Shown piece by piece: positions 9,945-49,288 of a stretch of 64,000 bases of DNA. Source of the DNA: BD2-11 clade cluster bacterium bin43. Lineage in GTDB: Bacteria > Gemmatimonadota > Gemmatimonadetes > Longimicrobiales > Gaopeijiaceae. The position numbers and the translations under genes are program-made. Position 1 is the stretch's first letter. Each line of letters opens with the position of its first letter. The stretch covers positions 1 to 64,000 of the forward strand of contig MPMR01000001.1 in assembly GCA_002238605.1 (NCBI GenBank), given 5' to 3'. Under the pieces are notes generated by a model. It was not told the DNA's origin. It saw only the letters and a program-made list of their open reading frames with translations, and searched no databases.

Positions 9945-11675
9945 CTACCCCTCGGGCGTCGCGTACCTGACCTCGCCGCCGACGATCGTGTACACGACCT
10001 CGGTGGCGGGGATGTCGTCCTCGGGGATCGTCAGGATGTCCTGCGAGAGCACGACGATGTCGGCGAGCTTGCCGGGGGTGAGCGAGCCTTTCAGGTGCTC
10101 CTCGAACGCTGCGTAGGCGTTGTTGATCGTGTAGCTCTCGAGCGCCTCCTCGCGCGTCATGCGGTGCTCGCCGGAGAGGACCTCTCCGTTGTTCATGCGC
10201 CGGCTCACCGATGAGAAGAAGCTCGCGATCGGCGAAATGTGCTCCACGGGCACGTCGGTGCCGTTCGCGATCATGACGCCGGCATCCAGGATGTCCCGCC
10301 ACACGTAGGAGGTTGCGATCATCCGCGCCCGCCCCAGGCGGTCCGCCAGCCAGGGTCCGTCGGAGGTGGCGTGCACGCCCTGCATCGACGCGATCACGTC
10401 CAGTTCGGCGAAACGCCCGACGTCGGCCGGGTTGAGGTGCTGCGCGTGCTCGATGCGCCAGCGCAGATCGGTGGCGTCGGGGTTGGCCGCGAACACCTGC
10501 TCGTAGATGTCGAGCACCTCGCGGTTGGCGCGGTCGCCGATGGCGTGGGTGTTGACCTGGAAGCCGTGCCGGATGGCCACCTCCGCGGTGCCGGTGATGT
10601 CCTCCACGGTCTCGAGCACCAGCCCCGGGTTGTCCATGTCGACGTAGTTCTCGAGCAGCCAGGCCCCGTGCGACCCGAGCGCCCCGTCGATCTGGCGCTT
10701 GATGGAGCGGACGGACAGGAAGTCGTTGCCCTCGGGGATGGTGCGGTAGTCGGGAAGCTTCTCGTCCATCACCTCGTTCGACTCGCGCACCATCACGTAC
10801 AGGCGGACCGGGAGCGCTCCCTCCGCCGCGAGCGCGCGCAGCCGATCGATGGTTGCGAAGTCGCTGCCGGCGTCCTGGAAGCTGGTAACCCCGTAGGCCA
10901 GAGCCTCCGCGCCGGCGAGTTCGACCGCCCGCCGGAACTCGGCGTCCACGTCCTCGGCGGAGCGTCCCTCGCCGGCACGCGCGATGGCGTCGCCCACCAG
11001 GCGCTGGGCGGTCTCGCGCATCAGGCCGGTGGGCGCGCCCGAGGCGTCCCGCACGATGGTGCCGCCGGGCGGGTCGGCGGTGTTCTCGTCGATCCCGGCG
11101 AGCTGCATCGCCAGCGCGTTGGCGAAGGAGGCGTGGCCGCTCGCATGCCCCAGGTTGACCGGGTTCTCGGGGCTGGCCGCCGAAAGGTCGGTGTGCAGCG
11201 GCACTCCGTCGACGTTGGGCTCGGGGGTCGAGGTCCACTTCTCCTGGTGCCAGCCGCGTCCGGTCACCCACTCGCCCGGCGCCGCCCGGCTGGCCGCGTC
11301 GCCCACCATCTGAACGATGTCGTCCCAGCTGGTGGCCGTGGTGAGGTCCAGGATCATCTTCGCGCGGCCCAGGCTCATGTAGTGGCCGTGGCCCTCGATG
11401 AAGCCGGGAATCACAAGCCTGCCGTCGAGCTCGATGACCTCGGTCGAGGGGCCGACGTAGCCGGCGATCTCCTCGTTCGTCCCCACCGCCGTGATGGTGT
11501 ACCCGGTCACCGCGAGCGCCTCCGCCTCCGGCAGGGCGTCGTCGACGGTCACGACCTTGCCGCCCATCAGCACCAGATCCGCCTGCTCGGCGGGGCCCGG
11601 CTCGCAGGCGGCGATCAGGACACCCGCCAGGAACGCCGATCGCGTGAGCGGAACAACCAGGGACAGCTTGCTCAT
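9945..11675 (-). CDS. YtcJ-type amidohydrolase, lipoprotein
   Basis: A 576-residue amidohydrolase of the YtcJ/N-substituted formamide deformylase group. The start at 11675 gives MSKLSL, a hydrophobic stretch and the lipobox LIAACEP; an upstream ATG at 11774 would overlap the palindrome pair and has no signal sequence. The HxH metal motif is in GFIEGHGHYMS (about residue 95). Later family landmarks are HAIGDRANREVLD, RIEHAQHL and GTDVPVEH. The enzyme probably hydrolyses an amide or cyclic amide outside the cytoplasm; the substrate is unknown. Two copies of a 17-bp palindrome lie 50-108 nt upstream of the start, so the gene is probably controlled by the same regulator as uvrA. Confidence 0.88.
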   Translation of the reverse strand: MSKLSLVVPLTRSAFLAGVLIAACEPGPAEQADLVLMGGKVVTVDDALPEAEALAVTGYTITAVGTNEEIAGYVGPSTEVIELDGRLVIPGFIEGHGHYMSLGRAKMILDLTTATSWDDIVQMVGDAASRAAPGEWVTGRGWHQEKWTSTPEPNVDGVPLHTDLSAASPENPVNLGHASGHASFANALAMQLAGIDENTADPPGGTIVRDASGAPTGLMRETAQRLVGDAIARAGEGRSAEDVDAEFRRAVELAGAEALAYGVTSFQDAGSDFATIDRLRALAAEGALPVRLYVMVRESNEVMDEKLPDYRTIPEGNDFLSVRSIKRQIDGALGSHGAWLLENYVDMDNPGLVLETVEDITGTAEVAIRHGFQVNTHAIGDRANREVLDIYEQVFAANPDATDLRWRIEHAQHLNPADVGRFAELDVIASMQGVHATSDGPWLADRLGRARMIATSYVWRDILDAGVMIANGTDVPVEHISPIASFFSSVSRRMNNGEVLSGEHRMTREEALESYTINNAYAAFEEHLKGSLTPGKLADIVVLSQDILTIPEDDIPATEVVYTIVGGEVRYATPEG

Positions 11676-11724
11676 GGGAACTCCGGACAAGGATGGAGAG
11701 ACAAACGGGAGGGCAGGGATCGGG

Positions 11725-11783
11725 TCTGCCAAAATGGCAGATTCATGGCATGTCGCGGGCTCGAGGTCTGCCAAAATGGCAGA
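11725..11783 (-). promoter_or_regulatory. Tandem 17-bp palindromic operators upstream of YtcJ-type gene
   Basis: Two perfect copies of TCTGCCAAAATGGCAGA lie at 11725-11741 and 11767-11783. Each has 7-bp arms and a 3-bp centre. The centres are 42 bp apart, four helical turns, so bound dimers would lie on one face of the DNA. The pair sits between the rhomboid stop and the amidohydrolase start, in the expected promoter position. The same palindrome is paired upstream of uvrA. The regulator is unknown. Confidence 0.75.
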
Positions 11784-11809
11784 CGGCGCGTTGTTCCCTC
11801 AGGATAGCG

Positions 11810-12565
11810 TCAGGGCACCATGCGGTCCAGAAACGCGCGCTCGTCTACCGTGAGGCTGCGGGCGCCGAAGGTCTGCACCTTGCGGAGCAGCGCGATGACC
11901 TCGGCGCGGTTGAGTTCGTGCAGCTCGTCCACCGGGATGAGTTCCCACTTGCGCCGCATCTCCGCGTCGGGCCTGGCCTTGACCACCCCCTGCATGCGCC
12001 GCCGAACCAGCCGGCGCCGTCGTTCCCGGGCCCAGAGGTAGACCAGCGCGCCGGCGAAACCGCCGAGGTGCGCGAAGTGCGCCACGCCGTCGTTTACCTG
12101 AGTGATGCCCGCGAACAGGCTGAAGCCCGCGAGGAAGAGGATCAGCCAGCGCGCCCGGATGGGCAGGATGCCCCAGATGTAGACCGGCTCCCGGGGCCAG
12201 TAGCGGGCGAAGCCCAGCAGGACCGCGAACACCGCGCCCGAGGCGCCCACGACCGGCGCCATGGGGGGCAGGAAGGAGAAGAGCGCGCCCCCCAGACCGC
12301 CGAACAGGTAGAGCCTGAGGAAGTGCGCCGACCCCATGCGCGACTCCAGCCGCGGCCCGAAGAAGTAGAGCCCCAGCATGTTGAGCGCGAGATGCCAGAA
12401 GCCCGCGTGGAGGAACATGTAGGTGAGGAGCGTCCACGGCCGGAACAGGGCGAACTGGGGCACCAGGGTGAGAGCCCAGAAGCCGTCGGATCGCGGCCCC
12501 GCGACCGCAAAGAGCAGAAAGACCACCGCGTTGGCGGTGATCAGTCGTCTTACCCACGGTGTCAT
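11810..12565 (-). CDS. Rhomboid family intramembrane serine protease
   Basis: A 251-residue polytopic protein starting MTPWVRRLITANAV; an ATG at 12634 would add 23 basic residues. The catalytic Ser is in GASGAVFAVL (about residue 107) and the catalytic His in FAHLGGFAGALVYL (about 165). The HLALNMLGLYFFGPRLE segment is the typical rhomboid loop and second helix region. The last ~70 residues are soluble and charged and match the tail often seen in this rhomboid branch. It should cleave single-pass membrane proteins within the bilayer; the substrate is unknown. It is followed by the palindrome pair and the amidohydrolase and diverges from ggt. Confidence 0.9.
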   Translation of the reverse strand: MTPWVRRLITANAVVFLLFAVAGPRSDGFWALTLVPQFALFRPWTLLTYMFLHAGFWHLALNMLGLYFFGPRLESRMGSAHFLRLYLFGGLGGALFSFLPPMAPVVGASGAVFAVLLGFARYWPREPVYIWGILPIRARWLILFLAGFSLFAGITQVNDGVAHFAHLGGFAGALVYLWARERRRRLVRRRMQGVVKARPDAEMRRKWELIPVDELHELNRAEVIALLRKVQTFGARSLTVDERAFLDRMVP

Positions 12566-12767
12566 CTCGGGCCGGCTCTTCCGTCCGCGGTTTCGTGAGG
12601 GCTGGGAAGCGGCGCGGCGTGGGGCTGCTGCCATGGGACCGCGCCCGCGCCATCAGTACCAGCGCCCGACTCGACTGGTTCCGGGATTCGCGCGGCGGGT
12701 CTGGTGATTCGGCGGCGCACGCGTGCATATTCCGGGTTCGAAGTCCGCATCGAAACTGGAGAGCCGG

Positions 12768-43756: not shown

Positions 43757-43760
<4 letters not shown>
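42372..43760 (-). CDS. M16 family zinc peptidase, catalytic subunit
   Basis: A 462-residue exported insulinase-type peptidase. GTG 43760 overlaps the uvrA stop (GTGA) and starts a signal peptide ending near LAHAQAF. The zinc motif is HFFEH (residues 89-93), with the third ligand Glu in NQREVVKEERR. The second domain lacks a clear Arg/Tyr pair, which the next gene supplies, so an active-inactive heterodimer is expected in the periplasm. The coupling to the cytoplasmic repair gene uvrA is unusual. Confidence 0.92.
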
Positions 43761-46600
<2,840 letters not shown>

Positions 46601-46628: not shown

Positions 46629-46676
46629 TCTGCCATTTTGGCAGAGTCTGCGGGACAAGTCTGCCAAAATGGCAGA
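46629..46676 (-). promoter_or_regulatory. Paired 17-bp palindromic operators upstream of uvrA
   Basis: TCTGCCATTTTGGCAGA at 46629-46645 and TCTGCCAAAATGGCAGA at 46660-46676 are perfect 7-3-7 palindromes, one being the reverse complement of the other. Their centres are 31 bp apart, close to three helical turns. The proximal copy is 29 nt before the uvrA ATG; the divergent PQQ-propeller gene starts 190 nt away on the other side. Position suggests promoter control of uvrA. Confidence 0.8.
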
Positions 46677-48576: not shown

Positions 48577-48915
48577 ATGATGCAAGAGGTCACCGACGCC
48601 ATCATCGACCAGATGGTGCAGGCGCTCGTCGCGGAGGCGGATCCCGAGCAGGTGATCCTCTTCGGCTCCCGCGCGCGGGGCGACTCCCGCGAGCAGTCCG
48701 ATGTGGACCTGATCGTCGTGGAAGCCGAGCCCTTCGGGCCCGAACGCAGCCGTCACCGGGAGATCGTCCGGCTCCGCCAGACCCTCCGGCCCTTCCGTGT
48801 TCCGGTCGATGTCCTGGTATACTCGCAGGAGGACGTGGACTACTGGCGGGATTCGCTCAACTTCGTCCTCGCGCGGGCGTTGCGGGAAGGCCGGGTGATG
48901 TATGAGCGATCCTAA
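48577..48915 (+). CDS. MNT-type nucleotidyltransferase (putative antitoxin)
   Basis: A 112-residue minimal nucleotidyltransferase. The active-site signature LFGSRARGDSREQSDVDLIVV contains GS and the DxD pair. In characterised MntA-HepT systems the MNT protein AMPylates and silences the HEPN partner. The next gene, overlapping by 14 nt, encodes such a HEPN protein, so the two are probably a toxin-antitoxin-like module. The HEPN partner here is of the COG1895/2250-like type, for which this mechanism is less well established. Confidence 0.88.
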   Translation: MMQEVTDAIIDQMVQALVAEADPEQVILFGSRARGDSREQSDVDLIVVEAEPFGPERSRHREIVRLRQTLRPFRVPVDVLVYSQEDVDYWRDSLNFVLARALREGRVMYERS

Positions 48916-49288
48916 GTGCGCACGGGCCCTTCTCGAAGCCGCGGACCGCGACATCCTGACCCTCAGGGAGATGACCGCTCGCGCACCCGACGAATCGTTC
49001 GGCTTTCATGTGCAGCAGGCTGCGGAGAAGGCGCTAAAGGCATGGCTGTGTGCCCTGGGCCAGATGTATCCACTCAGGCACGATCTCGACGACTTGCTTG
49101 ACTTGTTGGCATCGCGAGGCGCGGCTGTTGGTTTCTTCCGACCGGTCGCGGCGTTCACGCCCTATGCGGTTCAGTTCCGGTATGAGGGGCTTGGGCCCGG
49201 CCACGAGCCGATCGACAGGCCGGCGGCGTTGGCTCGGGTCGAGGAGTTGGTACGGCATGTACGGGATCGGCTGGCGGAGGTGGGATGA
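48902..49288 (+). CDS. HEPN domain protein (putative toxin or partner of MNT)
   Basis: A 128-residue helical HEPN protein. It has HVQQAAEKALKAWL and MYPLRHDLDDLLDLL, typical of HEPN proteins next to MNT genes, and AVQFRYEG near the end. The RNase motif RX4-6H of HepT-type toxins is not obvious, so catalytic activity is uncertain. The start lies 14 nt inside the MNT gene. An outer-membrane-protein tail fragment follows directly, suggesting that the module sits in a disrupted locus. Confidence 0.85.
   Translation: MSDPKCARALLEAADRDILTLREMTARAPDESFGFHVQQAAEKALKAWLCALGQMYPLRHDLDDLLDLLASRGAAVGFFRPVAAFTPYAVQFRYEGLGPGHEPIDRPAALARVEELVRHVRDRLAEVG

Follow-up and report, generated by a model that had tools for sequence, protein, structure and literature searches.

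What is the function of a 17-bp palindrome that stands twice upstream of an amidohydrolase gene, and twice again upstream of the distant gene uvrA? We addressed this by computational comparison, starting from a 64,000-nt stretch of DNA (hereafter the window, at its full length) in which the following features were placed:

9945..11675, minus strand: YtcJ-type amidohydrolase (Amidohydro_3), with the start codon at 11675 backed by conservation
11725..11741, no strand: palindrome 1 (TCTGCCAAAATGGCAGA), the proximal copy, centre 58 bp upstream of the amidohydrolase ATG
11767..11783, no strand: palindrome 2, identical to palindrome 1, centre 100 bp upstream of the amidohydrolase ATG
11810..12634, minus strand: rhomboid-family membrane protease gene, the upstream neighbour of the amidohydrolase gene on the same strand
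43757..46600, minus strand: uvrA, by its domain matches (UvrA domains, ABC_tran)
46629..46645, no strand: proximal copy of the uvrA pair, centred 37 bp before the likely start codon of uvrA (ATG at 46600)
46660..46676, no strand: distal copy of the uvrA pair, another 31 bp upstream

The start codons of the amidohydrolase gene and uvrA were set by alignment and lie later than the longest ORF starts. The palindrome, TCTGCCA-AAA-TGGCAGA, is embedded at the amidohydrolase in identical 19-bp repeats (GGTCTGCCAAAATGGCAGA; 11723-11741 and 11765-11783), and the pair occupies the gap between the rhomboid and amidohydrolase genes. The two copies reported by the first-pass annotation were found exactly where it had placed them, 42 bp or 4.0 helical turns apart from centre to centre. 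At uvrA the copies are 31 bp apart and their centres are inverted. With up to three mismatches allowed, these two pairs are the only matches in the window, against a chance expectation of 0.06 (the mean of shuffled windows). The earlier argument that pairs before two promoters are not a matter of chance is borne out, and the palindrome is also paired before many other genes.

The amidohydrolase pair is kept in four genomes (G000, G005, G002 and G009) with spacings of 42, 42, 42 and 43 bp; the 27-28 bp linker differs among them while the palindromes and their spacing persist. In the sister species G008 and G010 (loci L034 and L036) the block corresponding to window positions 11675-11810 is cleanly absent, and the amidohydrolase gene directly follows the rhomboid gene. 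At uvrA, the pair is present in G000 and G006 and a single copy in G002.

Copy number and helical phasing

The source genome, a Gemmatimonadota MAG, contains 22 strict copies of CTGMCAWWWTGKCAG and none of the reversed control; the form CTGCCANNNTGGCAG occurs 17 times, 16 of them with an AAA/TTT centre. All ten other genomes of the genus carry the palindrome (9-26 copies each), and its sites usually come in pairs. The nearest named relatives, judged by the amidohydrolase (90-93% identical), are MAGs labelled Gemmatimonadetes or Gammaproteobacteria, the latter label being probably wrong. The idea that the motif is restricted to the genus was dropped, as the palindrome is also present in other Gemmatimonadota genera.

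For the analysis of spacing, neighbouring sites were grouped by locus and one typical spacing was taken per locus. The 13 resulting values (21, 31, 31, 31, 31, 32, 41, 42, 42, 42, 42, 51 and 52 bp) are strongly periodic, with a Rayleigh R of 0.957 at 10.5 bp (p about 7e-6). With every distinct (locus, spacing) event of at most 60 bp included (34 in all), R was 0.72 and the best period 10.4. Exceptions are the clpB sites of some species, at 24 or 39 bp, and a mobile-element end, at 74 bp. The proposed phasing of the pairs to the helix, for which a genome-wide peak near multiples of 10.5 bp had been suggested as the check, therefore holds across the genome.

Genes preceded by the palindrome

Site-bearing genes were named by Pfam and NCBIfam matches. 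Sites conserved among five genomes of the genus precede, among others, dnaK, clpB, lon, hsp20, argR, imidazolonepropionase and an amine-dehydrogenase-like beta-propeller gene. Most are no farther than about 100 bp from a start codon, and some overlap one (argR and the amine-dehydrogenase-like gene). Farther from the genus within Gemmatimonadota, exact copies become scarcer and cluster at dnaK, lon, clpB, hsp20 and the gene of an OPT peptide transporter, with orthologous positions at the first four kept across genera. Because these distant sites concentrate on dnaK, lon, clpB and hsp20, the ancestral target was probably protein quality control. Genes for arginine, histidine and peptide use were added to the set in the source genus, and the amidohydrolase gene and uvrA look like later additions to the regulon. 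Neither recA nor lexA nor a translesion polymerase is among the identified site-bearing genes (a few site neighbours remain unnamed). A DNA-damage regulon around uvrA is thus not supported by the genes identified: the conserved members are chaperones and proteases.

Two known regulators were considered and rejected. Sites at argR and argF had suggested ArgR, but argR carries a separate conserved box, the palindromes precede chaperones, and the sites are not limited to arginine genes as ARG boxes would be. That separate box, with the sequence TGCATATCATGTGCATA, is conserved before argR (at about 4960-5020 in L019 and in orthologues) and is likely the ARG box of the genus. The HrcA site CIRCE (GCACTC-N9-GAGTGC) is likewise a palindromic heat-shock element, but it differs from our palindrome in sequence and spacer and is a separate site, one per genome, upstream of groES, where the palindrome is absent. 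In a Zixibacteria genome the only copy of the palindrome overlaps the hrcA start beside a CIRCE-like sequence (L460, 2380-2700), which may be coincidence.

Sigma-54 promoters beside the palindromes

In 5/5 genomes, dnaK has a -24/-12 promoter (GGGGCACGAACGTTGCT) whose start lies 24 bp from the proximal palindrome's centre, and hsp20 has a sigma-54 element (CTGGCACGCTCCCTGCC) that starts 16 bp from the palindrome centre. A weaker element with three mismatches is found at lon. The dnaK element also stands near the palindrome in five more genomes of other genera, the hsp20 arrangement recurs in other genera too, and the distance from palindrome to dnaK promoter is fixed across genera. Five outgroup genomes have kept the dnaK sigma-54 promoter with a GCC-N5-GGC palindrome upstream. 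In three of them the offset is -52/-53, and in two the palindromes form pairs spaced by 29-30 bp. That the outgroups retain both elements at dnaK argues that palindrome and promoter work together.

We had entertained a sigma-54 promoter at every site; the scan returned only dnaK, hsp20 and, weakly, lon. None was detected at the amidohydrolase gene or uvrA (up to three mismatches, within 250 bp), nor within 250 bp at argR or clpB. Of the features expected of sigma-54 enhancers, the paired and helically phased inverted repeats were seen, and a -24/-12 element downstream of them was seen at dnaK and hsp20; at the amidohydrolase gene and uvrA the downstream element is missing. Since palindromes are closely followed by a sigma-54 promoter at dnaK, hsp20 and perhaps lon, we read them as putative enhancers bound by a sigma-54 activator.

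A candidate regulator

RpoN is encoded in 20/20 relatives. Genome G000 yields six strong matches to sigma-54 activators (bEBPs), one of them without an HTH. By gene neighbourhood, the best candidate regulator is the one near dnaK:

G000 contig C37, within L461:5643-7421, complement: candidate bEBP in a protease/chaperone cluster near dnaK

This gene lies 9 kb from dnaK, beside gcvT, argF, hslU, engB and clpX, and its product carries a GAFTGA loop and a Fis-type HTH, so that the genome encodes both RpoN and an activator of the kind that sigma-54 enhancers call for. Four other HTH-bearing bEBPs are present besides it. A distant genome encodes a 60% identical protein in the corresponding cluster, where its neighbours are clpP, clpX, a Lon paralogue, engB and argF. 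The N-terminus of the candidate gave no Pfam match, including none to a receiver domain, and it appears to differ between genera where a receiver would bear the phospho-acceptor. In G008 and G009 the palindrome precedes argF, the first gene of an argF-gcvT-bEBP run, which would mean autoregulation; in G000 there is no palindrome before argF.

Integrase elements at the palindrome

At 12 loci in several genera, the end of a tyrosine integrase gene lies 79-91 bp from a palindrome, and AGCGGGAA repeats occur in the interval. The integrases are 73-76% identical between genera, and all of them keep this distance. Loci of the family are:

L027, 2876-4159: integrase-family locus
L028, 2563-4182: integrase-family locus
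L031, 5133-6629: integrase-family locus
L447, L452, L453, L456 and L458: further integrase-family loci

On the element side, the palindrome copy often has one outer base changed (CTGCC to ATGCC). In the sister genome G002, the match to the window on the rhomboid side extends as far as palindrome 1, beyond which the DNA passes into integrase-side sequence; on the amidohydrolase side the match begins at palindrome 1 and continues from there. As contigs break inside the elements and the flanks fall on separate contigs, we infer from gene order that an element inserted precisely into palindrome 1 of the amidohydrolase pair in this genome. The G002 uvrA palindrome lies next to an element end of similar sequence (82% over 66 bp). 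In G000 an element lies between clpB and an OPT gene, which are neighbours in G008.

Two signs by which an attB would be recognised were found: an integrase gene beside the core site at the 12 loci and, as pieced together across contigs, a copy of the core at each end of the element where relatives have an uninterrupted site (G002 against the window; clpB/OPT in G000 against G008). The palindrome thus also appears to be where elements of an integrase family attach. As attB for these tyrosine integrases, it would be duplicated by insertion, so that both flanks of the element keep a copy. If so, this mobile DNA lands in a transcription-factor site rather than in a tRNA gene or gene end, the operator is restored on insertion, and the element is placed beside stress promoters.

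Palindrome pairs in uncultured phages

In IMG/VR uncultured phages the palindrome occurs in tandem pairs at many intergenic places (L256, L266, L289, L299, L306 and others), with a spacing of 29 bp in 75 of 88 unique pairs. About half of the phage pairs directly adjoin one half of a sigma-54-like element (AGCAAA / GTGCCA), where 2-4 would be expected. These elements are inverted (AGCAAAT..GTGCCAAA), often with a TTGACA promoter further on; most read towards the pair, and a sigma-54 promoter pointing away was seen in only 14 of 150 strand views. No bEBP was found in 14 phage records, many of which are fragments, and our searches returned neither an isolate phage with such an array nor a host for the IMG/VR phages.

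Weighing the explanations

Conservation and phasing mark the amidohydrolase pair as a genuine regulatory site within a proteostasis regulon, most likely an enhancer of a sigma-54 activator, a role for which the evidence comes from dnaK and hsp20. The overall reading that we favour, and hold to be reasonably probable, is that the palindrome would serve a Gemmatimonadota proteostasis regulon through a sigma-54 bEBP and would double as attB for tyrosine integrases. Dimers of the bEBP would occupy both palindromes of a pair on the same helix face, and the bound protein would form an AAA+ oligomer that activates sigma-54 RNA polymerase under protein-damage stress; the protein encoded in the clpX-engB-gcvT-argF-hslU neighbourhood near dnaK could fill this role. 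At sites without a sigma-54 element, such as the amidohydrolase gene and uvrA, the same protein may occupy the promoter, most simply as a repressor, although this is a guess.

The palindrome could instead be the operator of a dedicated repressor of stress and nutrient genes, with some other activator driving the dnaK and hsp20 sigma-54 promoters. Sites close to, and in places overlapping, the start codons would suit repression, as would clpB and other genes without sigma-54 promoters. This reading does not account for the fixed distance to the dnaK promoter across genera or for the sigma-54-like elements adjoining the phage pairs, and argR apart, no conserved repressor gene was found next to a site; we regard it as rather unlikely. 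The abutting integrases, and the presence or absence of the amidohydrolase block as a unit among species, would fit palindromes that are chiefly sites of recombination or short mobile repeats left as scars by integrase elements, with an incidental position before genes. Helical phasing, orthologous positions at dnaK, lon, clpB and hsp20, and linkers that diverge while palindromes and spacing persist make this improbable. A LexA/SOS box with uvrA as its typical target has the least to recommend it: uvrA bears palindromes in G000, G006 and G002, but with a core of chaperones and proteases, and recA, lexA and translesion polymerases missing from the identified targets, we think it very improbable.

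Returning to the sigma-54 reading, we tentatively extend it to mobile DNA: a heat-shock enhancer at about 20 promoters may be exploited by integrases, as a multi-copy attachment site restored on insertion, and by phages, whose arrays beside sigma-54-like elements might plug into host stress control. This extension is plausible to us, though rather less than an even bet.

Comparison with known systems

The NtrC enhancer is TGCACC-N5-GGTGCA. Our site resembles it in being a 17-bp palindrome with an A/T centre that stands upstream of sigma-54 promoters in pairs about three turns apart, but differs in its half-site (TCTGCC) and regulon. In Myxococcus xanthus, an NtrC-like regulator of the HsfB/HsfA phosphorelay activates the heat-shock gene lonD (PMC9109919). 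The likeness to HsfA lies in a bEBP-type regulator, here a proposed one, at a heat-shock protease gene, and in the AAA+ and HTH domains. The difference is that the Gemmatimonadota candidate sits in a chaperone/protease cluster and has no Pfam-recognised receiver, and that dnaK, hsp20, lon and clpB carry a defined paired palindrome as its presumed site. In Planctomycetota and Bacteroidota, predicted sigma-54 promoters include those of DnaK, IbpA, ClpB and Lon (PMC12316311), the same target set as in Gemmatimonadota; that study did not extend to Gemmatimonadota, and its passages on these four genes give no enhancer motif. The Streptomyces integrative element PAISt integrates site-specifically at an 8-bp palindrome at one gene end (PMC4057263). 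Site-specific integration at a short palindrome is common to both systems, but the target proposed here is a regulatory palindrome at about 20 places, with different promoters used in different species.

The palindrome motif was not found in the literature searched, nor was any description of heat-shock control in Gemmatimonadota with such a motif, gene list and regulator. The comparison supplies all three, the regulator as a candidate, and would explain why the amidohydrolase gene and uvrA share an unusual paired site. Sigma-54 heat-shock control whose enhancer doubles as an attachment site would be a new variant.

Near uvrA, the window contains two short overlapping genes (48577-49288) that resemble, by sequence appearance, a nucleotidyltransferase/HEPN pair. 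A homologue of the second gene lies near a lone palindrome in G002 (L166).
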